From assembly GCA_949297975.1 (NCBI GenBank), contig CASFUX010000195.1, positions 1 to 32,033 on the forward strand: a stretch of 32,033 nucleotides of DNA, in the 5' to 3' direction. Each line of letters starts with the position of its first letter. The first letter of the stretch is position 1. The translations under genes and the position numbers were made by a program. Under the pieces are notes generated by a model. It saw only the letters and a program-made list of their open reading frames with translations, did not search any database and was not told the origin of the DNA. This DNA comes from an uncultured Bacteroidales bacterium. Lineage in GTDB: Bacteria; Bacteroidota; Bacteroidia; Bacteroidales; Paludibacteraceae. This document shows positions 6,728-23,597 of the stretch, in pieces.

Positions 6728-6750
6728 ATTCACGATACTACGTTTATTTG

Positions 6751-6977
6751 GGACACATGGCACACATAGTTTTATTAACTTCACGTCAATGAGATAAAGC
6801 GCACATAGCTTGTCCCGGCAAGCCGGGACGGAAAAATCCAAAGAGTTGCTATCATCCGCTTAAGCAAACGATACATTTTAAAAGTCCCGACACATGGTGG
6901 CGGGACAAGCTATGTGCGCTCCCTATCCAAACGAGGTACACTCCGTCCCTACTGTGTGCTATGTGTCTATTGTGTTT
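6751..6977. repeat. Composite palindromic spacer element, copy A
   Basis: Outer arms 6751-6770 and 6951-6968 read GGACACATGGCACACATAGT and the near reverse complement. Inner arms 6799-6816 and 6902-6919 are a perfect 18-bp inverted repeat (GCGCACATAGCTTGTCCC). A small perfect hairpin, GTCCCGGCAAGCCGGGAC, sits at 6812-6829, and a second GTCCCG...CGGGAC hairpin precedes the right inner arm. It fills the gap between the histidine kinase start and the rlmH stop. Copies B-F below share this plan. Confidence 0.8.
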
Positions 6978-7016
6978 CTCAAACATCCCCTCCTCGGGAG
7001 GGGCTTGGGGAGGCAT

Positions 7017-7490
7017 TTATTCATGATGGTACGGCTCTCCCCGGATGATGGTCATCGCCCGGTAGAGCTGCTCCAGGAAGATGACACGCACCATCTGATG
7101 CGAAAAGGTCATCCGCGACAACGACATCAGCCCGTTCGCACGCCGGTACACCCGCTCCGAAAAACCATATGGCCCGCCCACCACGAACACCAGCCGCCGG
7201 GTGGATGCCAGCAATTTCTGCCCCAAGAAGCCCGCGAACTCCACCGAGGTGCGTTCCTGCCCTTTCTCGTCCAGCAGCACCACCTCGTCACCGGGTTCTA
7301 TCTGCCGCAGCAGCAAGTCAGCTTCCCGCTCCAGCTGTTCCCCCTTCGACAAATGCTTGGTGCCCTTCAGTTCGGGCACTACCTGCATGGAAAACGTGAG
7401 GTAATGCCGCAAGCGGTTCTGATACTCCTCCTCCAGCTTGACCAACTGTTTATCAATCGTTTTCCCTACAACCAAAAGATTTGTTTTCAT
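7017..7490 (-). CDS. rlmH: 23S rRNA (pseudouridine1915-N3)-methyltransferase RlmH
   Basis: RlmH is a SPOUT-class methyltransferase that modifies pseudouridine 1915 in helix 69 of 23S rRNA, using S-adenosylmethionine on assembled ribosomes. The 157 residues match the family length. The trefoil-knot SAM site is seen as VFVVGGPYGFSERVYRRA (about 101-118). SLSRMTFSHQMVR (123-135) and the invariant C-terminus RGEPYHHE (150-157) follow. The gene diverges from the DUF4783-nadC pair and stands alone on its strand. Downstream is a G/C-rich hairpin (CCCCTCCTCGGGAGGGG, about 6987-7003) and then copy A of the spacer element. Confidence 0.97.
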   Translation of the reverse strand: MKTNLLVVGKTIDKQLVKLEEEYQNRLRHYLTFSMQVVPELKGTKHLSKGEQLEREADLLLRQIEPGDEVVLLDEKGQERTSVEFAGFLGQKLLASTRRLVFVVGGPYGFSERVYRRANGLMSLSRMTFSHQMVRVIFLEQLYRAMTIIRGEPYHHE

Positions 7491-7529
7491 GTCCCGCCGC
7501 TATGCTTTTATCAAAATATGCGCAAATAT

Positions 7530-7561
7530 TTTGCTCCACCCGATGTTTTGCATTATTTTTG
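7530..7561 (+). promoter_or_regulatory. Bacteroidetes-type promoter for DUF4783-nadC
   Basis: A -33 box TTTG (7530-7533) and a -7 box TATTTTTG (7554-7561) are separated by exactly 20 bases, matching the TTTG-N19-21-TAnnTTTG consensus. Transcription would start near 7566, giving a leader of about 335 nt that contains spacer element B. Confidence 0.75.
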
Positions 7562-7661
7562 CGTTGGTAGAATGCCCGTTACGCTTTGCAAATATGGCAT
7601 TTTTTCATGACATGGAGAAAAGCGGAGCGTGAAAACATCTACAATCGGCAGTCGAGGAGAA

Positions 7662-7856
7662 GGCAGCATAGATAACATAAGTATTATGTATTCTTTGTTT
7701 TTAGGAACGACAACATAGTCTGTAAAGCAACTACCGTTGCTTTACGTGAGCAACAAAGGTGGCCTCCCGTCCCGATGCGGAGCTTCGGGACAAGCTATGT
7801 TCCCGATTTATCAAGCAGGAATGGAGCTGGAAACCACTCATGTTTTCTATGCTTCC
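7662..7856. repeat. Composite palindromic spacer element, copy B (in the DUF4783-nadC leader)
   Basis: The ends 7662-7681 (GGCAGCATAGATAACATAAG) and 7837-7856 are inverted repeats, 17 of 20 matching. Inside are a perfect hairpin GTAAAGCAA/TTGCTTTAC (7722-7745), ACATAG/CTATGT arms, and a gtcccga...tcgggac hairpin (7769-7791). It is clearly homologous to copy C at 17355, including the terminal arms and the GTAAAGCAA hairpin. It lies entirely within the predicted transcript leader. Confidence 0.85.
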
Positions 7857-7901
7857 CCTCAATCCCAATACCTCTTTTGCATGACCAAAACACGAACACA
7901 T

Positions 7902-8306
7902 ATGAAACGAACAATCCCACTCGCAGCCCTGCTCGTGCTGATGCTCGCCTGTCCGCTTGCAGGCATGGCGCAGTCGCCCGACATCCCCACGGCCATCACC
8001 AACGCCCTGGGTCAAGGCGACGCATCGGGCTTGTCCGCCTACTTCAACGACAACGTGGAACTGGTGGTGGACAACCGCAACGACATCTTCAGCAAGCAGC
8101 AGTCGCACGGCATCCTCACCGACTTCTTCCGGAAAAACCGGGTAGACAGTTTCAATGTGCTCCACAAAGGGGAACGGGGCATGTCGTGCTTCATCATCGG
8201 CACGCTGGCAACCGACCTCGCCACCTACCGGGTGTACGTGCTGACGCGCAAGAACGAAAACCAACACTTCATACAACAACTTAGAATAGAACCATCCAAT
8301 GAATAA
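7902..8306 (+). CDS. DUF4783 family secreted protein
   Basis: A 134-residue protein with a signal peptide (MKRTIPLAALLVLMLACPLAGMAQ, cut before or after the final Q). The rest, with IPTAITNALGQGDASGLSAYFNDNVELVV near its start, fits the small NTF2-like fold assigned to the Bacteroidetes DUF4783 family. The function of the family is not established. I chose the ATG at 7902 because it gives a clean signal peptide. The frame is open further upstream but there it reads through repeat element B. The stop overlaps the nadC start by 8 bases, so the two are translationally coupled. From memory, the rlmH / DUF4783 / nadC neighbourhood recurs in Bacteroides. Confidence 0.88.
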   Translation: MKRTIPLAALLVLMLACPLAGMAQSPDIPTAITNALGQGDASGLSAYFNDNVELVVDNRNDIFSKQQSHGILTDFFRKNRVDSFNVLHKGERGMSCFIIGTLATDLATYRVYVLTRKNENQHFIQQLRIEPSNE

Positions 8307-9147
8307 GGACGATTACAAACAATTCATCCCGCTGTGGTTCGCCGAAGACATCGGCGACGGCGACCACACCACGCTGGCCTGCATCCCGGCGGATGCCATG
8401 GGCAAGTCGCAACTGATAATCAAGGAAGACGGCGTGCTGGCCGGCGTGGACGTGGCACGCGAGATATTCCACGCCTTCGACCCCGCGCTGAAGATGACGG
8501 TGTTCATCCCGGACGGCTCGGAGGTGAAACGCGGCGACATCGCCTTCGTGGTGGAAGGCAAAGTGCAATCGCTGTTGCAAACCGAGCGGCTCATGCTCAA
8601 CATCATGCAGCGCATGAGCGGCGTAGCCACCCGCACCCGCCAATACGTCAAGGCGTTGGAGGGAACGAAGACCCGCGTGCTCGACACCCGCAAGACCACC
8701 CCGGGCCTGCGTCTGCTGGAAAAGGAAGCCGTGCGCATCGGTGGCGGCACAAACCACCGCATCGGTCTCTTCGACATGATATTGCTGAAGGACAATCACG
8801 TGGACTTCGCCGGGGGCATCGAAAACGCCATCCGCCGCACGAACCAATACCTGAAGGAAAAGGGCAAGGACCTGAAAATAGAAATCGAAGTGCGCAACTT
8901 CGACGAGATAGAACAGGTGCTGCGCACCGGTGGCGTGGACCGCATCATGCTGGACAACTTTACCCCCGCCGACACCCGCAAGGCCGTGGAAATGATTGCC
9001 GGACGCTACGAGATAGAGTCGTCGGGCGGCATCACCTTCGACACCATGCTGGACTACGCCCGCTGCGGCGTGGACTTCATCTCCGTGGGTGCCCTCACCC
9101 ACTCCGTCAAAAGCCTCGACATGAGCTTCAAGGCGGTGGAAGATTGA
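8299..9147 (+). CDS. nadC: Nicotinate-nucleotide pyrophosphorylase (carboxylating), quinolinate phosphoribosyltransferase
   Basis: NadC converts quinolinate and PRPP to nicotinate mononucleotide, CO2 and pyrophosphate in de novo NAD synthesis. At 282 residues it has the normal length. The N-terminal open-faced sandwich (EDIGDGDHTT, about 16-25) and the TIM-barrel half are complete. Active-site motifs are DTRKTTPG (129-136), GGGTNHRIGL (148-157) and LKDNH (163-167), and ESSGGI follows near residue 240. No nadA or nadB lies nearby. It overlaps the DUF4783 gene by 8 bases and should share its promoter near 7530. A long hairpin follows the stop. Confidence 0.97.
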   Translation: MNKDDYKQFIPLWFAEDIGDGDHTTLACIPADAMGKSQLIIKEDGVLAGVDVAREIFHAFDPALKMTVFIPDGSEVKRGDIAFVVEGKVQSLLQTERLMLNIMQRMSGVATRTRQYVKALEGTKTRVLDTRKTTPGLRLLEKEAVRIGGGTNHRIGLFDMILLKDNHVDFAGGIENAIRRTNQYLKEKGKDLKIEIEVRNFDEIEQVLRTGGVDRIMLDNFTPADTRKAVEMIAGRYEIESSGGITFDTMLDYARCGVDFISVGALTHSVKSLDMSFKAVED

Positions 9148-9166
9148 GAGAGAGAACGCAAATGAC

Positions 9167-9404
9167 GCAAAAAGCGCAAATGAACGCAAATCCTATCTGC
9201 GTCCATTTGCGCTTCTTGCATTATTCCTTGCCTGCTTGATGAGGAAAGTTTATGCAAATTTGCAGTTGTACTTCAAATTTGCATAAATGGCACACCTTAT
9301 CTCAATAACATCCGCCTTTCTGTAGAGACAAGGCATGCCTTGTCTCTACAAGCCGACCCTACCTCTATAACACCTCCCGTTTGGAGATGCGGCGGCTGCA
9401 TCTC
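9167..9404. repeat. Cluster of four hairpins between nadC and the PEGA gene
   Basis: Four separate inverted repeats occupy this convergent gap. Arms 9167-9188 and 9198-9219 match at 20 of 22 positions (gcgcaaatg words) and probably mark the nadC 3' end. Arms 9251-9262 and 9274-9285 (TATGCAAATTTG) are perfect. Positions 9321-9350 form a perfect 30-bp palindrome with half-site TGTAGAGACAAGGCA. Arms 9384-9390 and 9398-9404 (GAGATGC/GCATCTC) lie directly beside the PEGA stop codon. The TGTAGAGAC word recurs at 13762-13916. Confidence 0.8.
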
Positions 9405-9406
9405 TA

Positions 9407-11536
9407 CTAAATAAAAAAGCCTATCCCGATATAACCCTCATGACATTTCAATCCCCAATTGTAGCTATATCCGGCAGAAATCAATAAGACATCCATTCTA
9501 TATATAGCTCCAATCTCAAATTCCAGACCAGAAGCTCCTGTTTCTCCTTCAATAAGTTCTCCACCCCATCCAGCACCAGCTTGCAGTGCCAGCCAAGAAG
9601 TAGGATTGTACATAATACCACCAGTAAGATGAAAAATTCGTTTTCCTGCTCTAAATTGGTAATATCCACCCCAACGACCGCTATATCCCATACTAAACCC
9701 TATCGGACTTACTCCATAGCTTCCTGCTGACATGCGATAGTCCATATAAAAGTAAGGGTCTATGCGCTCCCGAGTATATCTATATGTTGACGGCCTAATA
9801 TAGGTGCCACCCGATAGCTTGGTAGTGCTGTTTCGTGACGGTTTAGACCCGCGATACTTTATATTAAAGTGTTTATATACATTTTCATAACCTTCAACCT
9901 CCACAATCTCCTTTTCTTTCATTTTCCCATATTCCCACACGACCTCATGCTTTCCCAACGGCAATGTGATTAACAGGGGAACATTCCCATGATACTTTCC
10001 ATCCACATATACCTTAGCAGAAACATTGGATTTCACATATATACTTGCTGTCTTCGGTTTAAGTGACCGATACAAACCCTGTGCGCCTGGCCTTATTTCT
10101 ATATTTTCTATTATCGGCTCATAATTATCGTTAGTAAGTTTTATCTCATGCTTCCCCATAGGGAGTGTCAATAGTAAACTTTTATTAGAAGACGAATGCC
10201 CCATGTACACATCATCCACGTAAGCAGAAAAGTACACATCCGAAGAAATGATCAACGCCCCCGTCTTCGGCTTCTCCTCTAACCCCGCTTCCACGGTCTC
10301 CACCTTGCCTTCGAGGATGGTTACATACGTTTCATAAGGCTGGTAATCTTCATTCTCCGGCACGATGCGCACGGCGCGTCGGCCTACCAGCACGTCCTGC
10401 ACCATGCAGGGGGTGAGGGGGCTGCGTTGCTTGCCGTCAATGTACACGGAGGCTTTCTGGTTGTTCGTTACCAACACCTGCAACTTGCCGTACAGGGGTT
10501 CGAGGGCGGGGGATGAGAGCGACAACGGCTGCCCCGCCGTCACGGAGAAGTCGCGCCTGTGGGGGCGGTGTGAGGCACGGCTCGCCTCTAATACGTGCAG
10601 GCCACTCGCCAGGTCACCCCGCCACGTGCCGGTGGCGCGGAATTGCCGGTCGATATAGATGCTGTCGCCGGGGTTGGCCGCTTGTACCTCCACCGTACCG
10701 AAGTCTGGTGCCAGCGTGAGGCGCACCTCGCCCGTACCGCCCGGCTGGATGGTAACTTCCTGCTCAGTCGTTTTGTACAAGTCCTTGGTCAGCATCACCC
10801 GGTGCGTGCCTTTGAGCAAGGTCAGCGTGGCGGGGGTGTGGGCGTTCTGTAACTGCCCGTCCACCAATATGGCAGCCCCCGCAGGCTCGGAATGCACCTG
10901 GAGCGTGCCGTTGGACGACACCAGGCGCACCGTCAACTGGCCGGTCTCCTCCTGCCGCACCGTGATGCGCCCCCGCTCCGGCTCGTAGCCCGCCGCCGTC
11001 ACCTCGTAGTCGTAGGTGCCGGGGGCTATCGTGGTGCTGTAGTACGTATCGGCCATCACCTTAGGGTCTTGCGTGCCGAGGCGCAGGGTCGCTCCCGGCA
11101 CGTTGCACTCCACCGACAGGTAGCCCACATTGAGCGTCTCTTCCACGTGGGTATAGACCCGGCCGCCCGTCAGCGTCATGCTGTACACCCTGCCCGCTTC
11201 GAGCGGGGCGGGCAGCAAGTAGTTCTCCATCGTGCCCGCCACCGTGTGCGTGATGGAGATGCGCGAAGCCGTTGCCGGGGCATACACCCACGTACCATGC
11301 TCGCAGTCCACCTCGCCGTAGCCCACCGAGCCGAAGTCGAACCGCGTGAAGCCATCGCAGTTCAGCCCGGTGGAAATCTTGATGAGGGCGTAGAGTTGGC
11401 CATCGTACTGGCTCTTGCGTGGGTAGTTTACCTTGGCGTCGAGGTCGTGCGGCAGGGGTTCAAACTGCGTGACCGACATCTGCCCCACCGCCCCCAGGCT
11501 GGCCGATAAGAATAGGATGAATAAAAAGAACTTCAT
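9407..11536 (-). CDS. PEGA-repeat secreted protein with C-terminal outer-membrane barrel
   Basis: A 709-residue protein with a signal peptide (MKFFLFILFLSASLGAVGQ). After an N-terminal domain of about 115 residues there are roughly six PEGA-like modules of 65-70 residues starting near 138, 210, 280, 350, 425 and 496. They are recognisable by patterns such as GTLQVHSEPAGAAILVDG, VYIDGKQRSP and KVYVDGKYHGNVP. The last 120 residues are rich in aromatic and glycine beta strands and end in GFFI, as expected for a small barrel. PEGA modules are thought to bind surface polysaccharide. The ligand here is unknown. Base composition changes sharply near 10255: the 5' part is about two thirds GC, while the final 280 codons are 35-40% GC in the lines I counted. 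The gene ends with tandem TAG codons at the edge of a small hairpin. Confidence 0.85.
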   Translation of the reverse strand: MKFFLFILFLSASLGAVGQMSVTQFEPLPHDLDAKVNYPRKSQYDGQLYALIKISTGLNCDGFTRFDFGSVGYGEVDCEHGTWVYAPATASRISITHTVAGTMENYLLPAPLEAGRVYSMTLTGGRVYTHVEETLNVGYLSVECNVPGATLRLGTQDPKVMADTYYSTTIAPGTYDYEVTAAGYEPERGRITVRQEETGQLTVRLVSSNGTLQVHSEPAGAAILVDGQLQNAHTPATLTLLKGTHRVMLTKDLYKTTEQEVTIQPGGTGEVRLTLAPDFGTVEVQAANPGDSIYIDRQFRATGTWRGDLASGLHVLEASRASHRPHRRDFSVTAGQPLSLSSPALEPLYGKLQVLVTNNQKASVYIDGKQRSPLTPCMVQDVLVGRRAVRIVPENEDYQPYETYVTILEGKVETVEAGLEEKPKTGALIISSDVYFSAYVDDVYMGHSSSNKSLLLTLPMGKHEIKLTNDNYEPIIENIEIRPGAQGLYRSLKPKTASIYVKSNVSAKVYVDGKYHGNVPLLITLPLGKHEVVWEYGKMKEKEIVEVEGYENVYKHFNIKYRGSKPSRNSTTKLSGGTYIRPSTYRYTRERIDPYFYMDYRMSAGSYGVSPIGFSMGYSGRWGGYYQFRAGKRIFHLTGGIMYNPTSWLALQAGAGWGGELIEGETGASGLEFEIGAIYRMDVLLISAGYSYNWGLKCHEGYIGIGFFI

Positions 11537-11603
11537 TTTTAATGTTTAATGATTAATGTTTAATGATTAGTGATTAATGATTAACGGGGTTCCCGCTGAT
11601 AAC

Positions 11604-11765
11604 GCGGATTTACGCGGATAAGTACTGATTCGCTTACCTCTTACTCCTCGCCTCTGCATCGTGTCCCGCAGATGGCGCGGATTTACGCGGATGAGTACTT
11701 ATTCGCTTACCTCTTACTCCTTGCCTCTGCATGGCGCGGATTTAGGGCGAAAGATTTTTCGCCCC
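11604..11765. repeat. 56-bp direct repeat and hairpin in the PEGA / 598-residue protein gap
   Basis: Bases 11604-11659 and 11677-11732 are direct copies differing at about three positions (both start GCGGATTTACGCGGAT and end GCCTCTGCAT), and a third partial copy begins after 11733. A hairpin GGGCGAAA/TTTTCGCCC follows at 11746-11765, and GTAGGGCGATGCCCTAC comes shortly after. The flank 11540-11585 is a low-complexity run of taatgattaatgttt words. The rest of the 391-bp gap (11537-11927) holds no gene I can support. A G/C-run hairpin (CCCCCTTTAGGGGG) lies just before 11928. Confidence 0.8.
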
Positions 11766-11927
11766 TACAGGCCGTAGGGCGATGCCCTACGCTGAATGCC
11801 ACAAGGCCGTTGGACTTGACTTTCAGCCTTTTATCTTTGTACTTTATACTTTCACCTTTTTTGCGACCATCCGCGCTATTCGCGTCATTTGCGTTCCAAC
11901 AAGCCCCCTTTAGGGGGTTGGGGGTCT

Positions 11928-13724: not shown

Positions 13725-13761
13725 CACAATTAAACAACATATATATAATGACAAACCATCC

Positions 13762-14885: not shown

Positions 14886-14956
14886 CGAAATTATTTTGGA
14901 TATGCCACTTCTCCCATGCCCGAGAGGCACCGAAGGCATTCACAATGCAATTTCCA

Positions 14957-15038
14957 ACTTACTATAGTAAGTCAAGCAACTTTCTATAGTAAGTGAGCAA
15001 ACTTTCTATAGTAAGTCAGGCAACTTTCTATAGTAAGT
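14957..15038. repeat. Four 16-bp palindromes at an exact 22-bp period
   Basis: Copies start at 14957, 14979, 15001 and 15023. The first, ACTTACTATAGTAAGT, is a perfect palindrome. The other three read ACTTTCTATAGTAAGT, identical to each other and with one mismatched pair. The six-base linkers differ (CAAGCA, GAGCAA, CAGGCA), so the palindrome and not the linker is conserved. A 22-bp period places all four on about the same face of the helix, as expected for an operator array. It lies upstream of the minus-strand 6S-like RNA and downstream of the AraC-type gene. Confidence 0.85.
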
Positions 15039-15077
15039 TTTGTCAGCAAGTAACATGACATATTGTCTTTTATTTTA

Positions 15078-15385
15078 TGAATATCCGCATTGAGCCAAAT
15101 AAAACACAATAGGCACAATAGCAAAGGAGAATATTAGGAGGAGATGTCAGATGGCCGCAAGCGAAAAAGGTCACAATAGTATGCACCACCGCTTCGCGGC
15201 GGGCATGAAGCCTGTATCGTCCACGCAGATTGCCGCGCAGACCACACGGAAGTAACCTACAGTCCCGATGCGGAGCTTCGGGACTTCTATTGTGTGCTCC
15301 TATCCAGTTGAATGACTTTCTTGCAGAACCACACATTTCCTATTGTGTCTATTGTGTTTTTTGTATTGGCAGATTGCGGATATTC
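15078..15385. repeat. Composite palindromic spacer element, copy D
   Basis: The ends 15078-15121 and 15341-15385 are long imperfect inverted repeats (TGAATATCCGCA...cacaataggcacaatag against its complement). The interior has further cacaatag/ctattgtg arms and a 23-bp hairpin at 15262-15284 identical to the one in copy B at 7769-7791. It fills the space between the 22-bp palindrome array and the 3' end of the AraC-type gene, ending 4 bases short of that gene. Confidence 0.85.
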
Positions 15386-15389
15386 ATTT

Positions 15390-16616
15390 TTATTTTTCCT
15401 CGCTGGCATTGTCCCGGAATGCCTTGGGGGTCATCCCGTCGTGGTATTGCACGAAACAGCGGTGGAACACCGAAGGCGAAGAAAATCCGCACCGTTCGCC
15501 CACCTGCCCTACCGGCAAATCCGGATGCGACAACAACACCGACTCCGCCTCGCGCATCCGGTAGTCGCGCACCACGCCGCTGAAGCTCTGCCCAAAACCC
15601 TCGTTGAACACGCGCGAGAGGTAGGTGCGGTTCAAGGGCAGCACTTCCGTCACATCCATCAACTTGAAATTCTTGTTCAGATAAGGCTTCCGCTGCTCCA
15701 ACCACACCCTCACTTCTTCGCAATAGGCCGACAAGCGGGTGATGAACAGCGTCTCGGCATCCGGTTCGTCCATGCCTTGCTCATCCAGTTCCCTCGCCTC
15801 GGCCTCTTGCCGGGCCTCACTCTCATCCAGGGTGTTGCGGAAAAAATCCTCCGTATAAGGATTACGCTGAAACAACCCTTTGTACAGGATATAGGAGAAA
15901 AAGCACAGCACCACCAGCCCGTGCAGCACCAGCGTCCACGATTCCCCATTGAACAGCAACGCGCAATAGGCCGGCGCGATGGCGTATAACCCGATGCCAT
16001 AATTGCGCACCCATTCTATTTCCATGTCCTCGTCACTGGCATAATTGAATTGGCACCATTGCTCATACACCTTCTTGTAACTCCACGTATGGATGAAGAG
16101 GACAAGCAGATAAAAGAGAAGCACCCCCACGAGTATCAGGCGGTACCATACGTTGAAATGCCCCACATACAGCAGGAATTCCTGCCAGCTGTGCAGTTCC
16201 CAAGGCTTTTGGCCTAAAAAATACAACACGACGAAATAAACCAGGGTGAACAGCAGGTAAGGCAGCAGGAGCAAACCCGCACGCCTCAAGGTAAGCCAAC
16301 CGGGACGCACCACTTCAAGTGGGTACAACAATGACAGAAACAGATAAAGGCTGCCTGCCGCAAGCGTCCACACGTCCAACACGCTGCGGTGCACGAAATC
16401 GAGGCCAAACGAGCCTGTCAGCATACTGCCCAGCCGAAGCAGATAAAACGCTCCCCACAAGATGGCCACCATGGCCAGCAGGACACGCGAACGATTGCGC
16501 CCCTCGGACTTCAGCAGCAAAAAGGCCCCGCCTACGCAAACAAATCCATTCAACGCCTGCAATACAGGTAGCACAGAATCCGAAGCAGGCAGTGTCAGCA
16601 TATTCAACGGCATCAT
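15390..16616 (-). CDS. Membrane-anchored AraC-family transcription regulator
   Basis: A 408-residue protein with about seven hydrophobic helices in the first 250 residues (for example LLAMVAILWGAFYLLRLG, LLLLPYLLFTLVYFVVLYFL, LILVGVLLFYLLVLFIHTW). An acidic linker follows (DESEARQEAEARELDEQ), then a C-terminal AraC/XylS double helix-turn-helix (about 300-400). The first recognition unit includes LNRTYLSRVFNEGFGQSFSGVVRDYRMREAE and the second includes GERCGFSSPSVFHRCFVQYHDGMTPKAFR, the classical AraC signature. The regulator therefore binds DNA while anchored in the inner membrane and presumably senses an envelope or small-molecule signal. It is monocistronic. Whether it binds the nearby 22-bp array is untested. 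Confidence 0.92.
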   Translation of the reverse strand: MMPLNMLTLPASDSVLPVLQALNGFVCVGGAFLLLKSEGRNRSRVLLAMVAILWGAFYLLRLGSMLTGSFGLDFVHRSVLDVWTLAAGSLYLFLSLLYPLEVVRPGWLTLRRAGLLLLPYLLFTLVYFVVLYFLGQKPWELHSWQEFLLYVGHFNVWYRLILVGVLLFYLLVLFIHTWSYKKVYEQWCQFNYASDEDMEIEWVRNYGIGLYAIAPAYCALLFNGESWTLVLHGLVVLCFFSYILYKGLFQRNPYTEDFFRNTLDESEARQEAEARELDEQGMDEPDAETLFITRLSAYCEEVRVWLEQRKPYLNKNFKLMDVTEVLPLNRTYLSRVFNEGFGQSFSGVVRDYRMREAESVLLSHPDLPVGQVGERCGFSSPSVFHRCFVQYHDGMTPKAFRDNASEEK

Positions 16617-16655
16617 TTTCTTGTCGAAAACTATGGGTTACAACAAAAAATCAGC

Positions 16656-16663
16656 TATCTTTG
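16656..16663 (+). promoter_or_regulatory. Orphan plus-strand -7 box TATCTTTG
   Basis: An exact TAnnTTTG match lies 40 bp upstream of the AraC-type start but points away from it. No plus-strand gene follows before rsmG at 31289, and I see no -33 box. It might start a short divergent RNA. The remainder of the 469-bp gap 16617-17085 holds only the palindrome at 16999 and some short hairpins. Confidence 0.3.
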
Positions 16664-16998
16664 TGAAGTCAAAACACACCACGTCACCATTCGAGTCAAG
16701 TGGGGTAAAATTATATAAAGCATGCGATTTGAGAAAGAGGAAAGACATTTTTTAACATAATATCTCGCCAAACCATGCGACCTTGATATCTACTCCCACT
16801 CTCATTCCGTCCGGGCATTCAACTTCAATACCACAAAGAAAAGAAATGTCCGCAATGTATTCAAACAACAAGTATACCATTTAAACTTTTTTAAACAACC
16901 GGTTTAGAACCACAAGTAACGGGCTACGGACCACAAGTGCCAAGCGGGTTAGCTTACCCGCTACTCGGCCCCTGCTACCTTGGCATCTGCAAAAAAAA

Positions 16999-17059
16999 GT
17001 ACCGGTTAACACGGATAAGGAGGTTGGTTCATTCTCCTTCTATCCGTGTTAACCGGTAC
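16999..17059. repeat. Perfect 19-bp inverted repeat with extended stem
   Basis: Arms 16999-17017 (GTACCGGTTAACACGGATA) and 17041-17059 are perfectly complementary. AGGAG/CTCCT extends the stem inward past a one-base bulge. It lies 27 bases past the stop of the 60-residue minus-strand gene and could form its 3' hairpin. The acacgga word resembles the repeat at 1303-1388. Confidence 0.85.
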
Positions 17060-17085
17060 CATTCCGTCCGTGCCGCGTGTCGCGG

Positions 17086-17268: not shown

Positions 17269-17354
17269 AGGCAGTCTTGTTTTATGTTCGTTCTGTATAT
17301 AGAACGGCAAGACGTGCGAAATAGTATGCTGCCTGCAAAATATTTCCGCTCGGG

Positions 17355-17540
17355 GGCAGCATAGAAAACATAAGACATATCATTTCTTCTCTCTTAAAAA
17401 TCGGAAACATAGTCCGTAAAGCAACTGACGTTGCTTTACACGGGGCTACAAAAATCGTGCGTCCCGATGCTTGCCATCGGGACAAGCTATGTTTACGCTT
17501 TTAGGCGGAAAGAAATGATATGCCTCATGCTGCCTATGCT
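17355..17540. repeat. Composite palindromic spacer element, copy C
   Basis: The terminal arms 17355-17388 and 17510-17540 are imperfect inverted repeats (GGCAGCATAGAAAACATAAG at the left end, complement at the right). Inside are the GTAAAGCAA/TTGCTTTAC hairpin (17416-17439), shared with copy B, and a 23-bp hairpin (17461-17483) identical to the one in copy E at 22442-22464. It lies 13 bp past the stop of the DUF362 gene. Confidence 0.85.
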
Positions 17541-17552
17541 ATCCTGCACCCC

Positions 17553-18615
17553 CTACTGCCCGGTTTCCTGTACGAAAGGCTTCAGCCCCTGCACCGCCTC
17601 GGCTGGCGTAATGCGCTTGCCGCCGTTGTCCAGGTCGATGAGCACGTAGCGGTCGTTGCCCATGCCGAGTTCCTTCATGTACGACAGCTGGCGCAACCCG
17701 TGGCGGGTCTCCATGCGTTCCACCAGGTCGTGGTGCTCGGCTTCGGTCATGGCGTATATCAAGTCCACGCAAGCCTGGTCCAACGCCAGGATGTCGGTGG
17801 AGGACAGGATGCCCACGTTGGGTGTCACCACCGGCTCGGCGGCGAGGCCTTCGCAGTCGCAGGACACGGACATGTTGCGCATCACGTTGACGTAGGTGAT
17901 GTGCTCGCCGAAGTGGTCCACCACGGCCTTGGTCGACTCCGTCATGCGTTCCATGAATTCTTCTTCCTTGATGTCCCACATGTCGTCCTGGCCGGGGGGT
18001 GGTGTGTATCCACGCCTTGCCCACGCGCCCGTCGGCACAGCCGATGCCGATGTTCTTGTTGCTGCCGCCGAAGCCGCCTTGCGTGTGCCCCTTGAAATGG
18101 GTAAGCACCACCAAAGAGTTGTAACGTGGCAGGTGGCTCCCCACCGACATGCGGTCAAACCACTTGCCGCCCCGCACCGGGATGGTCAGCGTGTCCTCCT
18201 CGTCCATGATGTCCACGGGGCAGAACGTCCAGCCGTTCACCTCCAGCGTGCGCCGGTGCTGCTCGGTGGTGTAGCGGTCGCCCTCGTAGTACGTGTTGGT
18301 CTCCACGATGGTGGCCTCAGGCAGGTCCTTTTGCATCAGCTGCTTCACCCATGCGGCGGGGATGATGTTGGGACCGTGCTGCTCACCGGTGTGCAGCTTC
18401 ACCGCCGTCTTTCCCCCGATGCGGGCGCACACCTGTTCATAGGCCTGAATGAGGCCTTCCGCACTCAAGTTGCGCGTGAAGTAAACAATGGATTCATTGC
18501 CAGTACGCTGTTCATAAGGCACATATTTGTCGCCATCCTTGCCGGGCACGGGCTGTGCCATGGCCGCTGCTCCTGCTATTAAACCTGCCATCATTATTGC
18601 TATTATACGTTTCAT
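17553..18615 (-). pseudogene. Secreted DUF362 family protein with a one-base frameshift
   Basis: The first 205 codons, read from 18615, give a signal peptide (MKRIIAIMMAGLIAGAAAMAQ) and a typical DUF362 N-terminal half (VKLHTGEQHGPNIIPAAWVK, VVLTHFKGHTQGGFGGSNKN). At a C6 run on the minus strand (17999-17994) the family sequence moves to the +1 frame and continues GQDDMWDIKEEEFMERM through LSSTDILALDQACVDLIYAM to a TAG at 17553. Removing one C gives 353 continuous codons, which joins both halves exactly. The protein is therefore broken in this sequence, by a true indel, a slippage-prone switch or a homopolymer error. DUF362 proteins are of unclear function, and some relatives carry Fe-S clusters. 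I see no ferredoxin motif here. Confidence 0.85.
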
Positions 18616-18640
18616 AATTGGTTGTTGATAAATTCCGACG

Positions 18641-18648
18641 CAAAGGTA
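18641..18648 (-). promoter_or_regulatory. -7 promoter box of the DUF362 gene
   Basis: Minus-strand TACCTTTG followed by C is an exact TAnnTTTG(C) match. The start would fall near 18636, giving a leader of about 20 nt. No clear -33 box is seen at 19-21 bases. Confidence 0.6.
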
Positions 18649-18712
18649 ACGGATGTTCCCCTCGCGGGCGTTACCCGAATGACGGAATGATGTACCCCGA
18701 TTCCTGTTACCG

Positions 18713-19306
18713 TCACTTCAGTTCCAGGTGGATGTTGCATTCCACGGCCATGCGGCGCATGTTGATGAGGGCGTAGCGCATACGCCCCAGGGCGGTGTTG
18801 ATGCTCACGCCGGTGCGGTCCGCGATTTCCTTGAAACTCAATTCCTCGAAATAGCGCATCCGCACCACTTCCCGCTGCACGTCGGGCAGGAAGTTCACCA
18901 GGTGCGCCACGTCCTGCAACACCTGCTCGTTGGACATCACGTCCTCCACGCATTTCTCCGCCAACTGGGCATCGTTCATGATGTCGTAACCGGCCGTGCT
19001 CACGGGGAACGTGTTTTCGTTGCGCTCACGCCTGAAGTAATCCACTATCAGGTTGTGCGCTATGCGGTTGAGCCAGGACAAAAACTTCCCCGATTCAACA
19101 TATTTTCCCTGTTGAATGGTGACGATGGCCTTCATGAAAGTGTCTTGAAAAATATCTTCGGTCAGTTCACGGTCGCGCACGAACAGGAAGATGTACGCGA
19201 ATACCTTGGATTGATAACGGAACAATAATTCTTCAAACGCCTTACTATCGCCTAATTCATACCGCTTGACCAATTCGTCATCGGTCAATCGAGTTAAAGC
19301 ATCCAT
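18713..19306 (-). CDS. RNA polymerase ECF sigma factor
   Basis: A 197-residue ECF-type sigma-70 protein. Region 2 lies at about residues 25-95 (LLFRYQSKVFAYIFLFVRDRELTEDIFQDTF, then FLSWLNRIAHNLIVDYFRR) and region 4 at about 135-190 (LPDVQREVVRMRYFEELSFKEIADRTGVSINTALGRMRYALINMRR). The HTH of region 4 would read the -33 element. It is a single-gene unit with its own promoter and no adjacent anti-sigma gene, unlike the sigma factor at 21686. DUF362 follows 97 bases downstream with its own -7 box. Target genes are not known. Confidence 0.93.
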   Translation of the reverse strand: MDALTRLTDDELVKRYELGDSKAFEELLFRYQSKVFAYIFLFVRDRELTEDIFQDTFMKAIVTIQQGKYVESGKFLSWLNRIAHNLIVDYFRRERNENTFPVSTAGYDIMNDAQLAEKCVEDVMSNEQVLQDVAHLVNFLPDVQREVVRMRYFEELSFKEIADRTGVSINTALGRMRYALINMRRMAVECNIHLELK

Positions 19307-19400
19307 GTGCAGTCCTCTTTTTTATGGATTAAATAATAGTAATGGTGGGCAATAGGCGTTAAAATGTTTGGTTCGTAAATTATTCTTATTGTTTCCGGGG

Positions 19401-19431
19401 CAAATGTAATAAATATATCGAAAAGGAGAAA
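19401..19431 (-). promoter_or_regulatory. Promoter of the ECF sigma factor gene at 18713
   Basis: Minus-strand TACATTTG (19408-19401) is an exact -7 match. TTTC (19431-19428) stands 19 bases upstream in place of TTTG. The start would be near 19396, leaving a leader of about 90 nt. Confidence 0.6.
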
Positions 19432-19498
19432 CCTTTTGGTGAAATAATTTCAAATTTCCCTGCACGATCAGGCATTGGGCTTGACGCTGGTATTCCAT

Positions 19499-19545
19499 TA
19501 AAAAAAGCACGCCCCCGCAGTTTTTGCGGGAACGCGCTTTTTCCT
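19499..19545 (-). terminator. Strong terminator after the NigD-like gene
   Basis: On the minus strand CCCGCA/TGCGGG around AAAAC, flanked by AAAAAGC and GCTTTTTTT, forms a long GC-rich hairpin with a T-tract. It lies 27 bases past the NigD-like stop and insulates it from the downstream sigma gene promoter. Confidence 0.88.
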
Positions 19546-19571
19546 TTAACTTGCCTTGCCCCACGGCCGCA

Positions 19572-20333
19572 TTACTCCAGTTGCAGGCTCGACAGGGTGG
19601 TAGCGGCCACGCTCTCCCCTTCGTCCGTTTCCTCGCCGCCCAGGCGATAGACCACTTCCTGCACCGTTTCCTTTTCGCCATACAGCGGGGCGTGGACAAC
19701 GATGTTCAGCGAATCTGCCGTGGCAAATTGCTCACGCAACGGCAGCAGGTCGAAGGCCGCAATGCCCCAGCTGTCGTAGTTGGGCAGGTCGCCCTTGCTG
19801 TGGTGGCGCAGCTGCAAATGCACCTTGCCGTCGGTGGCAGGCACGGAGTCGGCATAGGCCACCAGGTTGATGAAATGCTTGATACCGCTATTGGATGAGC
19901 GCACCAGGAACTCCACGTTGAGAAAGTCCGACGCTATCCACGGCTTGCCCACCTGCACGAACGCATCGTGCCCGATGCTGTCCTCCTGCGCTTCGGTCAC
20001 AGGGTTCAGCTCCACATTGAAGATGCCTTTGGTCAGTATCTCGTACAGGTACGTGTACTCGATGCCATAGTCGTAATCGCTGCCCTCGCCCATTTCCTCC
20101 GTGATGTAGAAGTCGGCGATGAGCCGCTGGCGGTGCTCCGGCACGTAGGGCGAGTTGAGGGGCTTCAAGCGTTCGCCGCCGTCGGACAGCAGGATATAAT
20201 CGCTCACCTTGTCGGGGTTGAGCACGGTGCCGATGGTGCGGTACACCGGTTCAGCCGGTTCATTCTTGCAACCGGTGAATGCCAAGGCCGCCGCTGCGGC
20301 AGCCAGGCAGAAAAGTTTCGTTGTCGTTTTCAT
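19572..20333 (-). CDS. NigD-like lipoprotein
   Basis: A 253-residue surface or periplasmic lipoprotein. The signal peptide ends in the lipobox FTGC with C22. The following sequence (GTVLNPDKVSDYILLSDGGERLKPLNS, with RLIADFYITEEM) fits the N-terminal OB-like domain of the Bacteroidales NigD-like family. The second half (SNSGIKHFINLVAYADSV, LQLRHHSKGDLPNY, LNIVVHAPLYG) fits its C-terminal beta domain. NigD was named from a Prevotella nigrescens bacteriocin locus, but most homologues occur outside such loci and have no known role. It is followed by a strong terminator and separated from the barrel gene upstream by a 120-bp low-complexity gap, so it is probably transcribed alone. Confidence 0.88.
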   Translation of the reverse strand: MKTTTKLFCLAAAAAALAFTGCKNEPAEPVYRTIGTVLNPDKVSDYILLSDGGERLKPLNSPYVPEHRQRLIADFYITEEMGEGSDYDYGIEYTYLYEILTKGIFNVELNPVTEAQEDSIGHDAFVQVGKPWIASDFLNVEFLVRSSNSGIKHFINLVAYADSVPATDGKVHLQLRHHSKGDLPNYDSWGIAAFDLLPLREQFATADSLNIVVHAPLYGEKETVQEVVYRLGGEETDEGESVAATTLSSLQLE

Positions 20334-20453
20334 CTTGTGTTGAATTTATCGGTACGCCAAAACGCTAAAACGCTAAGATTGTTCATAATATTAAATGTTC
20401 CTTCGCGTCCTTGCGCCTTTGCGCACCCATTGTTAATTTTTAATTGTTCATTG

Positions 20454-21689
20454 TTAATTGTCAAACGTTATTCTCATTCCCGCGTTCAGCCCCACGATGA
20501 GCGGGTTTTCGGTGCGGGCGCTCAAGGGCTGGTTGTTCTTCAAATAATAAAACACGTTCGGCTCCAGGTACACGCTCAGGCTGCGATAAAAGCGATACTC
20601 GATGCCCACCGAGGCGTTGAGCGACCATTGCAGGCCCGCGATGCGCCCCGTCTCGGTCGTGGCCGTCGGGGCAAGGTTGGGCGTGCGCACAGTCTCCCGG
20701 TAGGTGGCCTGCACGCCCTTTTCCACCATGCCACCCGCCAGGCAGTAGATGCTCCACCGGGGGCGGTCAATGAGGTAAGCCACCGCGTTGAGCGGTATGC
20801 CCACGTAGTGCATTTGCAGGTCGGCCTCGCGCTGGACGATTTGCTTGTCGGCCATCATGGAGTGCAGATAGGTGTACGTCACACCCGTTTCGAGGGCGAA
20901 ATGCCTGCCCAAGTCCTTGCGCACCCGAAGCCCGGCGGAAAGGGGCGGCAGGTGCGTGACGCGCGAAAACGTGCCCGATGCCGGTTGCTGCGCTTCGTCG
21001 GCATTCTCCAGAAAAGCACTGGTGCGGGGCGCGTAGGCGAGCAGGTTCTTCTGCTCCGTGTGCTTGCTGCCGCCACCGCTCACCGAGAGGGCGACATGCC
21101 ATCCCCCCGCCCGTTTGCGGGAACGGGCGGACGGCGGTACGTCCCACGAGGCTGCCTCACTCCCATCCAAACGTTCGGGCGCAGGCTGTGCGGGGCGGGC
21201 GGGAGTTGGCTCGGATGGGCGGGCAGATTGCGGTTCATCGGCCTGCGGCGTGTCCGCTACCTCCGCCTGCACCGGTTGCGAAGCACTTGCCACCGGGCGG
21301 TGACGCGGCGGGACAACCACAAATGCGGACGGCTCCGCTTCCACATCCTCCCGCGTCCCCACTGCCTGAACCACGGGGGCGGCGGGCTGCACCTGCGGGG
21401 GCAGAACCGAGGCCTCAGTCTCGCACGACACGGACTGCACCCCTTCCGGCTCCGCCACACCGACAGGGCGGAAAGGCGGCATCAGCACCAGCAGGCACAC
21501 GGCAGCCGCCACCGCCGTCGCACCTGCCAGCCACGTCCACAGGGGCACAGCCTCGCGCCGCTTGCCATTCAGGCGGGCTTCAAGCTCCGCCCAAGCACGA
21601 TCGTCGGGTGGAAGTTCGTGTCCTGCCAGCCGGTCGCGCACCGCGCGGCTAAAGGAGTCGAGCCGGTCGTTATCTTGCTTCCTTGTCAT
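20454..21689 (-). CDS. Anti-sigma-like membrane protein fused to an outer-membrane beta-barrel
   Basis: The 411-residue product begins with a charged cytoplasmic segment of about 48 residues (MTRKQDNDRLDSFSRAVRDR, then DDRAWAELEARLNGKRRE). A single membrane helix follows (about 50-70, WTWLAGATAVAAAVCLLVLM), then a Pro/Ala/Gln-rich linker (about 80-195), and then a domain of about 210 residues with alternating beta strands ending GLNAGMRITFDN, like small outer-membrane barrels. The start ATG overlaps the stop of the ECF sigma gene by 4 bases (ATGA), so the two are coupled. This supports an anti-sigma role for the N-terminus. The layout implies one chain anchored in the inner membrane and reaching the outer membrane through the linker. 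That is inference. No zinc-binding anti-sigma motif is visible. Confidence 0.82.
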   Translation of the reverse strand: MTRKQDNDRLDSFSRAVRDRLAGHELPPDDRAWAELEARLNGKRREAVPLWTWLAGATAVAAAVCLLVLMPPFRPVGVAEPEGVQSVSCETEASVLPPQVQPAAPVVQAVGTREDVEAEPSAFVVVPPRHRPVASASQPVQAEVADTPQADEPQSARPSEPTPARPAQPAPERLDGSEAASWDVPPSARSRKRAGGWHVALSVSGGGSKHTEQKNLLAYAPRTSAFLENADEAQQPASGTFSRVTHLPPLSAGLRVRKDLGRHFALETGVTYTYLHSMMADKQIVQREADLQMHYVGIPLNAVAYLIDRPRWSIYCLAGGMVEKGVQATYRETVRTPNLAPTATTETGRIAGLQWSLNASVGIEYRFYRSLSVYLEPNVFYYLKNNQPLSARTENPLIVGLNAGMRITFDN

Positions 21690-22240
21690 CTTTCGTTTCC
21701 TCCACGTTGTAAAACCATTTGCTGCAACATCTGCCGGGCGCGGGCAAACTGCGAGCGCGACGAGGCCTCGCGTATGTGCAACATGTCGGCTATCTCGGCG
21801 TGCGAATACCCTTCGATGGCATACAGGTTGAACACCGTGCGGTAGCCATCGGGCAACGCGGCCACGCATTGCAACAGTTCGTCGGCCGAAATCCGCTCCA
21901 CCGCTGAAGGGGTGCATTCGTCGGGCAGGTCGAGGCATTCGTCCGCAGCCACGCTCTGCCGCAGCACGTCGGCACGGCGCAACTGTTCGAGTGCCGTGGT
22001 GACGAACACCCGCCGCATCCAGCCCTCCAGCGAACCGCTGCCCCGGTAGCCCCCTATCTTGGTGAACACCCGGATGAACCCCTCTTGCAACAGGTCGCGG
22101 GCCGTGTCGCGGTCGCCTGCATAGCGGGTGCACACGGACAGCATGGACGGCGCATACCGCTCGTACAGCCACCGCCGTGCCTGCCCTTCGCCACGCTTGC
22201 AGCCTGCGATTACTTCCTGCTCGTCAAAAGTGCTGTCCAT
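21686..22240 (-). CDS. RNA polymerase ECF sigma factor, coupled to an anti-sigma-like barrel protein
   Basis: A 184-residue ECF sigma factor. Region 2 (about 20-90) reads RRWLYERYAPSMLSVCTRYAGDRDTARDLLQEGFIRVFTKI, and region 4 (about 125-180) reads LPDGYRTVFNLYAIEGYSHAEIADMLHIREASSRSQFARARQML, including the RSQ...ARxxL HTH end typical of Bacteroidetes ECF factors. The gene ends in an ATGA overlap with the next gene, which encodes a membrane protein with a short cytoplasmic N-terminus. The pair therefore looks like a sigma/anti-sigma unit responding to an envelope signal. Spacer element E lies upstream. A possible -7 box TACTTTTG at 22434-22427 sits inside that element, without a clear -33 box. 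Confidence 0.93.
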   Translation of the reverse strand: MDSTFDEQEVIAGCKRGEGQARRWLYERYAPSMLSVCTRYAGDRDTARDLLQEGFIRVFTKIGGYRGSGSLEGWMRRVFVTTALEQLRRADVLRQSVAADECLDLPDECTPSAVERISADELLQCVAALPDGYRTVFNLYAIEGYSHAEIADMLHIREASSRSQFARARQMLQQMVLQRGGNER

Positions 22241-22314
22241 CTCTTATATTATTGTAGATGCAAATGGGGGAAGAAACGTTGCATGAAGCTTAAGTTATCT
22301 GGAGAACATGATAG

Positions 22315-22523
22315 ACACATAGCACATATAGCTATTCCTGTCATTTCGTATTCAACAAGAAGCACACATAGCTCGTCCCGACACAGAGTGCCGGGACTTT
22401 AGCATGTACCATCCGCCTTAAGCGTACAAAAGTAACCAATAGTCCCGATGCTTGCCATCGGGACAGCTATGTGTTCTCTTAAAGACTATGCAGAAATAAA
22501 AACTCTGTGCCGCTCTGTGTCCA
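22315..22523. repeat. Composite palindromic spacer element, copy E
   Basis: Inner arms 22361-22373 (AGCACACATAGCT) and 22465-22477 are complementary at all but one position. Outer arms 22315-22332 and 22504-22523 are degenerate gacacatagcaca words and their complement. A 23-bp hairpin at 22442-22464 is identical to that of copy C. It occupies almost the whole gap between the sigma factor start and the universal stress protein stop. Confidence 0.8.
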
Positions 22524-22531
22524 TATCTTAT

Positions 22532-23302
22532 TCAGTCGCACAGTGCGTACAGGTCGCCCCGGGGATTGATGAGGAGGATAGGCACCGAGGAATGGCGCAA
22601 CAAGTGCCGTTCCTTAGGACCGAACAAGAGATCGTCCAGCCCATAGTCGCGCGAGGCGGAAAGCAGCACCAGCCCGTAACCCTCGCCAGCGGCACGGCGC
22701 ACGGCCTCGCGCTCCACCTTGTAACTGTCGCCCCGCGCCCGCTCTACCCGGTATGACACCTGGAATTTGTCGAGCAACGCACTGATCTTCTCTACCGTGC
22801 GCCCAGCCTTGGAGCCGTAGTCGTTGGCCTGCAACAGCAGCACCTGTGAGCCGTAAAACCGCCCGAAGGCCGAAGCGAACTGCGCCTTTTCATACTCCTC
22901 CTCCAAGAAAGTCACCGGCACCATGACCTTATCGGGACGAAGCGGTGCAAAACCCGTGCCACATATCAGATAAGGGATGCGCAACCCCCGGCAGGCCGTG
23001 AGCGTGCGTTGCAGGGTGCGGGGACGGTCGTCGGGCTGCTGCACGAGCAGGAACGAAGCTTCCAGTTCCTCGCACACCTCGCTTAATTGGCCGAAGCCGT
23101 CCGTGCGCACCACAACCTGCACCGGCACGTCCCCCACCCCGTCGGCCAACCGCTGCAACTCCTCCCGAAGCAGTTCGAGGGGAGTACCGCCTTCGGCAAA
23201 GGCCAGCAGGCCGAGCGTTTTCTTGAAATGACGCGCCAACGACGAAGCCGACTCCCAAGCCGCCTCCGCCGTGGCAGGATGATGTACGCAAAGAAGAACC
23301 AT
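22532..23302 (-). CDS. Universal stress protein (UspA-like)
   Basis: A 256-residue soluble protein with two UspA-like halves. The first (VLLCVHHPATAEAAWESASSLARHFKKTLGLLAF) matches the family N-terminal strand-helix. The second (VPVTFLEEEYEKAQFASAFGRFYGSQVLLLQAND) repeats it, and the C-terminus GPKERHLLRHSSVPILLINPRG resembles the G-x9-G(S/T) nucleotide-binding end, here with RHSSVP in that position. USPs are small cytosolic ATP-binding or dimerising stress proteins of varied role. It lies in the minus-strand run after MurF-Alr but is separated from it by spacer element F and a tandem array, so it may be transcribed on its own. No -7 box was found. Confidence 0.85.
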   Translation of the reverse strand: MVLLCVHHPATAEAAWESASSLARHFKKTLGLLAFAEGGTPLELLREELQRLADGVGDVPVQVVVRTDGFGQLSEVCEELEASFLLVQQPDDRPRTLQRTLTACRGLRIPYLICGTGFAPLRPDKVMVPVTFLEEEYEKAQFASAFGRFYGSQVLLLQANDYGSKAGRTVEKISALLDKFQVSYRVERARGDSYKVEREAVRRAAGEGYGLVLLSASRDYGLDDLLFGPKERHLLRHSSVPILLINPRGDLYALCD

Positions 23303-23361
23303 AGGGGTGATTGATGATTTGCCTATTTACTATTTTACAATTTACTATTGACGATTGACAA

Positions 23362-23449
23362 ATTCCGTTACTACGCGGCAAAAATTCCGTAGGCACGCAA
23401 TTAAATTTCCGCACTGGCGCGGCCGGATTTCCGCAGGCACGCGCCCACG
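23362..23449. repeat. Four degenerate 22-bp tandem units upstream of the universal stress gene
   Basis: Units start at 23362, 23384, 23406 and 23428, an exact 22-bp period. All contain (A/T)TTCCG at the start and a CGC about 12 bases later (for example TTTCCGCAGGCACGCG). The internal sequence is degenerate. The array lies 60-150 bp upstream of the universal stress protein start. The period equals that of the palindrome array at 14957, although the motif is different. Roles as operators or as a decayed minisatellite are both possible. Confidence 0.65.
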
Positions 23450-23451
23450 GT

Positions 23452-23597
23452 CACATAGCACACCGAGTTTTTTGCCCCGCTTCCACCTAAAAAGCACACA
23501 TAGCTGTCCCGATGTCGAACTATCGGGATAACATCAAGACAAGCTATGTGTGCTCCTTATCGACAACAAAATACACAACTATATGTGCTATGTGTCC
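23452..23597. repeat. Composite palindromic spacer element, copy F
   Basis: Inner arms 23493-23505 (AGCACACATAGCT) and 23542-23554 (AGCTATGTGTGCT) are perfectly complementary, and the left arm is identical to that of copy E. Outer arms are CACATAGCACAC (23452-23463) and tgtgctatgtg (near 23584-23594). The core is a gtcccgat...atcgggat hairpin at 23506-23529. It lies 15 bases past the MurF-Alr stop. Confidence 0.85.

Follow-up and report, generated by a model that had tools for sequence, protein, structure and literature searches.

Six intergenic spacers of one short stretch of DNA carry palindromes built to an unusual nested plan, and the question they raise is what kind of element this is and what moved it there. 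The stretch, here called the window, comprises positions 1 to 32,033 of contig CASFUX010000195.1 from an uncultured Bacteroidales bacterium (GCA_949297975.1). A first-pass annotation made from its letters had proposed six copies, A to F, of one dispersed family of non-autonomous palindromic repeats. Our analysis confirmed that family and added two things beyond the earlier account, namely that the words of the arms fall into largely separate dialects and that a gene family, GxxExxY, is flanked by such words, in the window's own genome too. Throughout, G000 denotes the window's genome (an 87.6% complete draft), G247, G248 and G249 denote congeners, and L followed by a number denotes an individual locus.

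Six copies of one multi-copy family

Copies were compared with R1, a model of 28 pairs trained on 14 copies, three of them from the window (A, D, E) and 11 from other parts of the genome. All six elements lay where they had first been placed. Some boundaries were mended: D runs from 15077 to 15387, flanked by its target duplications, and the first positions of E and F are 22314 and 23449. The features are:

6751 to 6967, minus strand: element A; the outer arms are words (GGACACATGGCACACATAG ... GTGTGCTATGTGTC) and the inner arms read AGCGCACATAGCT, with a middle stem and a pair of GTCCCG hairpins; core 6797-6921.
7662 to 7856, plus strand: element B; ends GCAGCATAG/CTATGC, inner arms with ACATAG, a hairpin of GTAAAGCAAC and GTCCCGAT as the core; core span 7707-7806.
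15068 to 15076, no strand: left target-site duplication of D, TTTTATTTT, from the end comparison of copies.
15077 to 15387, plus strand: element D, which spans 311 bp and has ATGAATATCCGCA/TGCGGATATTCAT as its 13-bp terminal inverted repeats, GTCCCGAT core; core span 15167-15299.
15388 to 15396, no strand: right target-site duplication of D, TTTTATTTT, from the same comparison.
17355 to 17540, plus strand: element C, of B's subfamily, from its R1 match; core 17401-17498.
22314 to 22522, plus strand: element E; ends GACACATAG ... CTCTGTGTCC, inner arms of AGCACACATAGCT and a pair of GTCCCG hairpins; core 22360-22478.
23449 to 23597, plus strand: element F; ends GGTCACATAG ... CTATGTGTCC, inner AGCACACATAGCT arms, a single GTCCCGAT hairpin; core 23492-23555.

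Nested inverted arms were found in all six stretches. In A, the arms at 6798-6820/6898-6920 are enclosed by a second pair at 6752-6766/6953-6967; in D, arms at 15101-15125/15336-15360 are enclosed by 15077-15098/15366-15387, and six CACAATAG words are spread over the outer and inner arms. The 14-copy alignment revealed the plan of A and E, which from the outside inwards consists of CACATAG/CACAGAG word arms, inner arms AGCRCACATAGCT and a GTCCCG hairpin, after which come a middle stem, the motif GTAACC, which is conserved, and another hairpin, GTCCCGAT. B and C carry GTAAAGCAAC/GTTGCTTTAC in place of the left hairpin, whilst the termini of A, E and F are inverted words. Direct reading of the sequence upheld the earlier statements that B and D have one and the same 23-bp core, that C and E likewise agree in theirs, and that B and C have the GTAAAGCAAC/GTTGCTTTAC hairpin in common. 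The impression of mosaic, recombined arms stood in part: subfamilies do share cores and hairpins in varying combinations, recombination being a possible origin.

R1 recovered all six window copies, including B (E 2e-10), C (E 2.7e-9) and F (E 1.7e-7), on which it had not been trained; A, which was among the training copies, was matched at E 2.2e-26. The best match in the window after these six reached only E 0.46. A genome-wide search for CGGGACAAGCTATGT with at most two mismatches returned 53 matches, compared to 6 with the reversed pattern. The inverted arms in all six spacers and the recovery of the untrained copies bear out the proposed nested-palindrome family, and these results demonstrate that the six stretches are copies of one multi-copy family.

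The family is not confined to the window. Element C, used as a blastn query against its own genome, gave 56 matches up to E 10, and R1 gave 82 matches in G000, corresponding to 62 distinct places at E 0.01 (F was dropped from this genome-wide list by stricter filters). Six copies in 32 kb, described at first as dense, are indeed a local excess over a genome mean of ~0.65 per 32 kb. When 41 genomes were searched, R1 matched in three of them: G000, G248 (28 rows with 18 distinct starts, or 17 places once one overlap was merged) and G262, with one weak match. At E 0.01 there were no places in G247 and G249.

We then compared orthologous sites. The RlmH protein of G248 is 95% identical to that of the window, and for C, D, E and F the orthologous spacer was compared in G248 only. 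The sites of B, C and D are empty there, with nothing comparable in them. E is missing from its orthologous spacer, which contains an unrelated palindrome (CCCCCTCAACTCCCCC ... GGGGGGAGTGGAGGGGG) in its place, and F is missing from its own, which contains three CRCGGAT words instead (CACGGAT, CACGGAT and CGCGGAT). A close congener therefore lacks five of the six window copies at the orthologous positions; where A would lie it has a degraded relic, interrupted by another palindromic repeat. Inspection of the sequences beside rlmH in G247 and G249 revealed neither A nor B. The elements are a recently spread family within one lineage of the genus.

Two kinds of ends and the word dialects

Twenty further R1 places were fetched besides the window copies, and their words and ends were read. 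Twelve of them (L291-L300, L305 and L310) carry 3 to 6 CACAATAG words each, no CACATAG and one CACAGAG overall, and the remaining eight carry CACATAG or CACAGAG, L304 among them having also one CACAATAG. The words thus form largely separate dialects, CACAATAG in the D subfamily and CACATAG/CACAGAG in most others, with mixing in L304 and at the right end of A.

The ends differ as well. The D subfamily terminates in ATGAATATCCGCA/TGCGGATATTCAT, and direct repeats of ~9 bp lie just outside these ends (TTTTATTTT for D, AATAAGTAA for L293, TTTTGAAAT for L296 and ACAAAAAAAT for L305). The direct-repeat score was 75 over 14 sequences, compared to a mean of 19.6 and a maximum of 44 in 766 mispairings. 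These 14 were the 12 D-subfamily copies, D included, together with L020 and L030, which are without the terminal repeat; L298 was left out, as it gave no pair. An exact repeat of at least 7 bases was present in six of the 12 D-subfamily copies, one with a single mismatch in two and one of 6 bases in two, and no direct repeat was found in L292 and L310. These results demonstrate that the D subfamily moved by true transposition with ~9-bp target duplications, and by its ends and duplications D is a miniature inverted-repeat transposable element (MITE).

The word-bounded elements have sharp ends, GGACACAKAG ... CTMTGTGTCC, of GGACACAGAG/CTCTGTGTCC type. In contrast to the D subfamily, the 22 of 35 such elements with clear ends (17 from the own genome and 5 from G248; 13 were left out) showed no target duplication, with a score of 10 compared to 17.9 when mispaired. 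The target-site duplications that had been suggested as a check were thus found in one part of the family and not in the other, which indicates that the family uses at least two routes, one of DDE-like type for D and another, leaving no duplication, for the word-bounded copies.

Other repeats occupy the same surroundings. The E and F spacers (G248 locus L257, contig C42) have seemingly been re-used by different repeat families, and the repeat that breaks up the A relic in G248 is of a palindromic type, ATTTCTCCCTACGGTCGAAATGACG/ATTTCTCGCTGCGCTCGAAATGACG, seen also at L038, L059 and L222. Within the window, positions 23360-23442 hold a further dispersed repeat of TTTCCGCACTGACGCGG type with ~20 matches in G248, and a short stretch at 20428-20461, in or beside a coding frame, has ~13 matches in G248 and 2 in G247 and represents either a widespread protein motif or a third family of repeats. 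A self-complementary ACTTTCTATAGTAAGT word array lies immediately left of D (14955-15040), the G248 spacer having TACTATAGAAAGT words, and a long near-perfect hairpin of CACGGAT-type words (TAACACGGATAAGGAG ... CTCCTTCTATCCGTGTTA) at 16998-17060 may be a word element in its own right.

Word arrays at GxxExxY genes

The arms of the elements resemble repeats that stand beside GxxExxY genes, and we used this as a lead. One intact PF13366/TIGR04256 gene was found in G000, at L061, encoding protein P0001 (TIGR04256 142.5 bits, cut-off 35; PF13366 139 bits, cut-off 22) and lying between genes that we read from protein ends as sufB and sufC. This gene is bracketed by CACAATAG arms holding internal hairpins. 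Its flanks, like D, contain six CACAATAG and zero CACATAG words, and they have 17 identical bases in common with D, whereas at least 12 were shared by only 1 of 500 random 250-bp stretches of the genome. A GxxExxY remnant of 33 profile positions was also detected at L062 (1501-1599), bracketed by CACGGAA-type words and with neighbours presumed to be leuD and leuC. Since the end words of the elements are of the same kind as the GxxExxY flanks, GxxExxY is the leading candidate for their mover.

We next considered such loci generally. PF13366 is present in 137 of 247 genomes of the order (E 1e-5), and GxxExxY in 120 of 247 genomes of a phylum sample (E 1e-20). A discovery set of 111 GxxExxY loci, 31 from the order and 80 from many phyla and two domains, was inspected, and a CRCNNAG chain, defined as two or more words at 8-16 nt steps, was picked after that inspection and applied unchanged to 30 new loci, the best-scoring matches of the 120 genomes. 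Chains were found at 87 of the 111 discovery loci. Of 26 rlmH loci in those genomes none had one (0 of 26), and of 82 segments lying 1 kb off within the discovery loci 9 did, several with CACAGAG words. At the held-out loci the frozen pattern was found in 24 of 30, compared to 2 of 30 segments 1 kb away; inward-pointing arrays on both sides were present in 18 of 30, outward-pointing ones in 1. The six misses, examined by eye, had CGCAGAT, CACAGAT, ATTCGTG or imperfect CACAGAG words. At loci of the same family, 7 of 15 had chains, compared to 0 of 11 controls.

In a count that did not depend on the pattern, some 7-mer occurred at least 5 times in 53 of 111 flanks and in 4 of 86 distal segments; a generic count of tandem 7-mers separated less (at least 2 pairs in 77 of 111 loci versus 8 of 26 rlmH loci). 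At least 2 tandem CACAGAG hits were present in 60 of 137 genomes with the gene and in 7 of 110 without it (P 7e-12, uncorrected for kinship and genome size). The median number of tandem hits was 7 in 9 CACAGAG-labelled genomes versus 0 in 21 others (P 0.012, with labels and counts entered by hand and further GxxExxY matches in 25 of the 30 genomes left out). No clear target duplication was found at 75 GxxExxY loci (score 83 versus 69.2 mispaired, with 33 of 300 as high). These results demonstrate, as an association, that inward-pointing arrays of such words flank GxxExxY genes across phyla.

Invariant in 20 aligned GxxExxY proteins are E40, E50, D80, E90-x-K92, H101, Q104 and Y108 (P0001 numbering), residues that we read as a PD-(D/E)XK site with a QxxxY-like motif. 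An AlphaFold model of the L093 protein with 31 relatives had a predicted local distance difference test score (pLDDT) of 95.8 and a predicted template modelling score (pTM) of 0.88. Its best PDB match was SSO0001 (probability 1.00, E 0.011, template modelling score (TM) 0.53), which we take to be a Cas4 protein; nothing in this structure search of the PDB lay at or below E 0.001. Among named viral proteins, Halogranum tailed virus 1 gave the best structural match with a PD-(D/E)XK nuclease (E 2.1e-7, TM 0.71). From motif and fold, GxxExxY is predicted to be a Cas4-like PD-(D/E)XK nuclease, and its activity on word palindromes is proposed on the same basis. It is like Cas4/RecB-like nucleases in its fold, with SSO0001 as best match, and in its conserved D, ExK and QxxxY residues; it is unlike them in being only ~125 residues long, in having word-array flanks and in that a sequence search of the PDB gave no chain at E 1.

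Word and protein change in step. A quick tree was made from 126 proteins and 123 columns, 10 of its 123 inner branches being well supported, and words were counted on it at the 70 of 126 loci with a clear word, the other 56 being left out. They changed 33 times, compared to 43.7 when shuffled (minimum 40, 300 shuffles), and CAC/CGC changed 11 times, compared to 21 (minimum 16). The nearest protein from another phylum had the same word in 16 of 48 cases versus 7.9 expected (P 0.0125, the 48 cases not being independent). These counts suggest that the word tracks the GxxExxY protein clade.

GxxExxY genes or remnants lie at mutA/mutB in L110, L113, L117, L228 and L236, at leuC/leuD in L062, L230 and L274, and at sufB/sufC in L061, all of these gene names being ones that we assigned from protein ends. 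At the same operon site in different species the flanking words often differ. Carriage by phages and plasmids was considered and set aside: with tblastn, the own GxxExxY protein, as the single query, matched 0 of 50,697 phage records at E 1e-6 and 8 of 72,556 plasmids at E 1e-8.

What moves the elements

With moderate confidence, we read the elements as recently spread non-autonomous mobile palindromes, with GxxExxY acting on their word arms and D moving on a DDE-type transposase. The earlier proposal of non-autonomous elements resembling MITEs or repetitive extragenic palindromes (REPs) on a shared word set agrees with the 62 places, the absences in congeners, the D-subfamily duplications and the failure to find a REP-associated tyrosine transposase (RAYT): a search of G000 with PF01797 (Y1 transposase) gave 0 matches at E 0.01, and for this reason the elements are not filed as REP/RAYT. 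On the statistical link, these REPIN-like elements (REPINs being REP-derived hairpin elements) probably have a Cas4-like nuclease, and not a RAYT, as their partner. The GxxExxY nuclease would recognise its own word arms, as RAYT does its REPINs; it may cleave palindromic DNA on extrusion or when single-stranded, and such cleavage could promote the copying of gene-less palindromes in trans. Given its outer terminal inverted repeat and duplications, the D subfamily is most likely carried by a DDE-type transposase, the word element being a passenger.

Several observations weigh against a role for GxxExxY. R1 found no match in the flanks of the own GxxExxY gene, so that the link rests on words and plan and not on the GTCCCG core, and the 13-bp D ends were not seen at L061. 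The D-subfamily terminal repeats and duplications themselves point to a DDE-type transposase. Intact GxxExxY genes number one per genome, flanked by CACAATAG in G000 and by CGCTAAG in G248, whereas most other G000 elements, and all 8 examined of the 17 places in G248, use CACATAG/CACAGAG; no GxxExxY with these words was found in G000 or G248 (drafts ~88-89% complete). The own protein does group with L093, L094, L097 and L098, which have CACATAG-type flanks, and also with L095, L106 and L107, whose flanks are without; this eight-member group has a support of 80, in a tree of 123 columns, and three of its rows lack a CACATAG-type word. The frozen pattern fails in 6 of the 30 held-out loci and in 8 of the 15 from the same family, where some have other words and in some none was seen, and the loci tested were the best-scoring ones and not a random draw. 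Seven of 110 gene-less genomes have at least two tandem hits, in a co-occurrence that ignores kinship and genome size. Finally, GxxExxY genes are found again and again at the same operon positions (mutA/mutB, leuC/leuD), which is not how an active transposon behaves.

Among the alternatives, the one that survives best is that every subfamily consists of ordinary MITEs that belong to at least one DDE-transposase insertion sequence lost or missing from the draft, with words, hairpins and GxxExxY as passengers. The 13-bp terminal inverted repeats and ~9-bp duplications of the D subfamily speak for it, and closely similar full-length copies suggest recent movement. It fits poorly with the lack of duplication in the 22 word-bounded elements and of a clear one at the 75 GxxExxY loci, and with an association of words and GxxExxY that spans phyla and two domains, the words tracking the protein clade; no DDE gene with these ends is known in G000, though no search aimed at one was made. 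We consider this explanation unlikely.

A second alternative, which we judge improbable, is that the elements act chiefly as transcribed RNA hairpins or terminators that GxxExxY binds or processes, their spread being incidental. Stable nested folds were computed for the elements, they lie in spacers between genes, and GxxExxY genes sit between genes resembling one operon, all of which would suit such a role. However, presence and absence differ between close congeners, and Rfam gave no match at gathering score in the window and none at E 1 in 6700-7900. Covariation was modest as well: two-sided change occurred in 6 of 29 pairs, a value reached by 0 of 500 shuffles, and sliding by one column gave 7. 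In 4 of 14 copies CACATAG on one inner arm stands opposite CTCTGTG on the other, which indicates that the word is preserved where pairing is not. Third, and very improbable, the elements may have been moved by another REP-type enzyme, a RAYT or HUH transposase, that was lost afterwards. The hairpin-bounded plan without duplication resembles REPINs as portrayed in parts of PMC3116915; the Y1 search of G000 described above was negative, other HUH families not having been searched.

The reading in which GxxExxY acts on the word arms can be extended to a bolder one, which we advance tentatively and think slightly more apt to fail than to hold. In it, GxxExxY would represent a widespread and hitherto overlooked class of prokaryotic mobile element, a Cas4-like nuclease within inverted arrays of its 7-8-nt word, copying itself and swarms of gene-less word palindromes into spacers without duplication; nuclease and word would co-evolve into dialects, and the window elements would be non-autonomous descendants. 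Such co-evolution would account for one operon site carrying different words in different species, as at mutA/mutB, where the words are CGCTAAG in G248 and CACGGAG in G249.

We regard the window elements as a new family within a familiar kind of element, while the nuclease-partner system would be new as a variant. Like REPs and REPINs with their RAYT (REPtrons), they are small intergenic palindromes in many copies with paired hairpin ends, they show no duplication in the word-bounded copies, several types occur per genome, and a small enzyme gene resident in the genome has flanks of the same kind as their ends; the dialects, and the repeated presence of that gene at the same sites, are further parallels. 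Unlike REPtrons, the candidate enzyme is a PD-(D/E)XK nuclease and not a Y1 transposase, and the ends are arrays of 7-8-nt words at ~10-nt steps instead of the single REP of 20-40 bp given in sections of PMC3733652. The D subfamily resembles MITEs such as BrickBuilt of Porphyromonas gingivalis in its terminal inverted repeats, target duplications, size (311 bp for D) and empty site; it is unlike BrickBuilt in that the GAGACCTTCGCA-type ends and 23-nt tandem repeats of the latter, as excerpts of PMC4596501 present them, differ from the elements here, and the tested word-bounded copies are unlike MITEs in lacking duplications. IS200/IS605 elements and TIRtrons, according to portions of PMC3733652, also place an enzyme gene within inverted, partly self-complementary ends, with gene-less copies elsewhere; the enzyme fold and the word arrays set the present system apart.

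Printed mentions of GxxExxY include a gene taken for it that adjoins a reverse transcriptase (a passage of PMC8934634), its name in part of PMC12085832, and TIGR04256 or PF13366 in part of PMC9756366. In the literature searched, which was mostly open-access and did not include bioRxiv, we found no function of GxxExxY, no paper matching the word-array strings and no prior report of word arrays at GxxExxY genes, though one may exist.

GxxExxY genes are common, and the word-array signature at most tested loci gives them a function that can be tested. Repeats of CACAGAG, CACGAAG and CGCAGAT type are familiar from many genomes, and the signature would explain them. If the nuclease moves or maintains palindromes, the partnership of RAYT and REPIN would not be the sole one of its kind, and there would be a natural DNA substrate for a Cas4-like nuclease.

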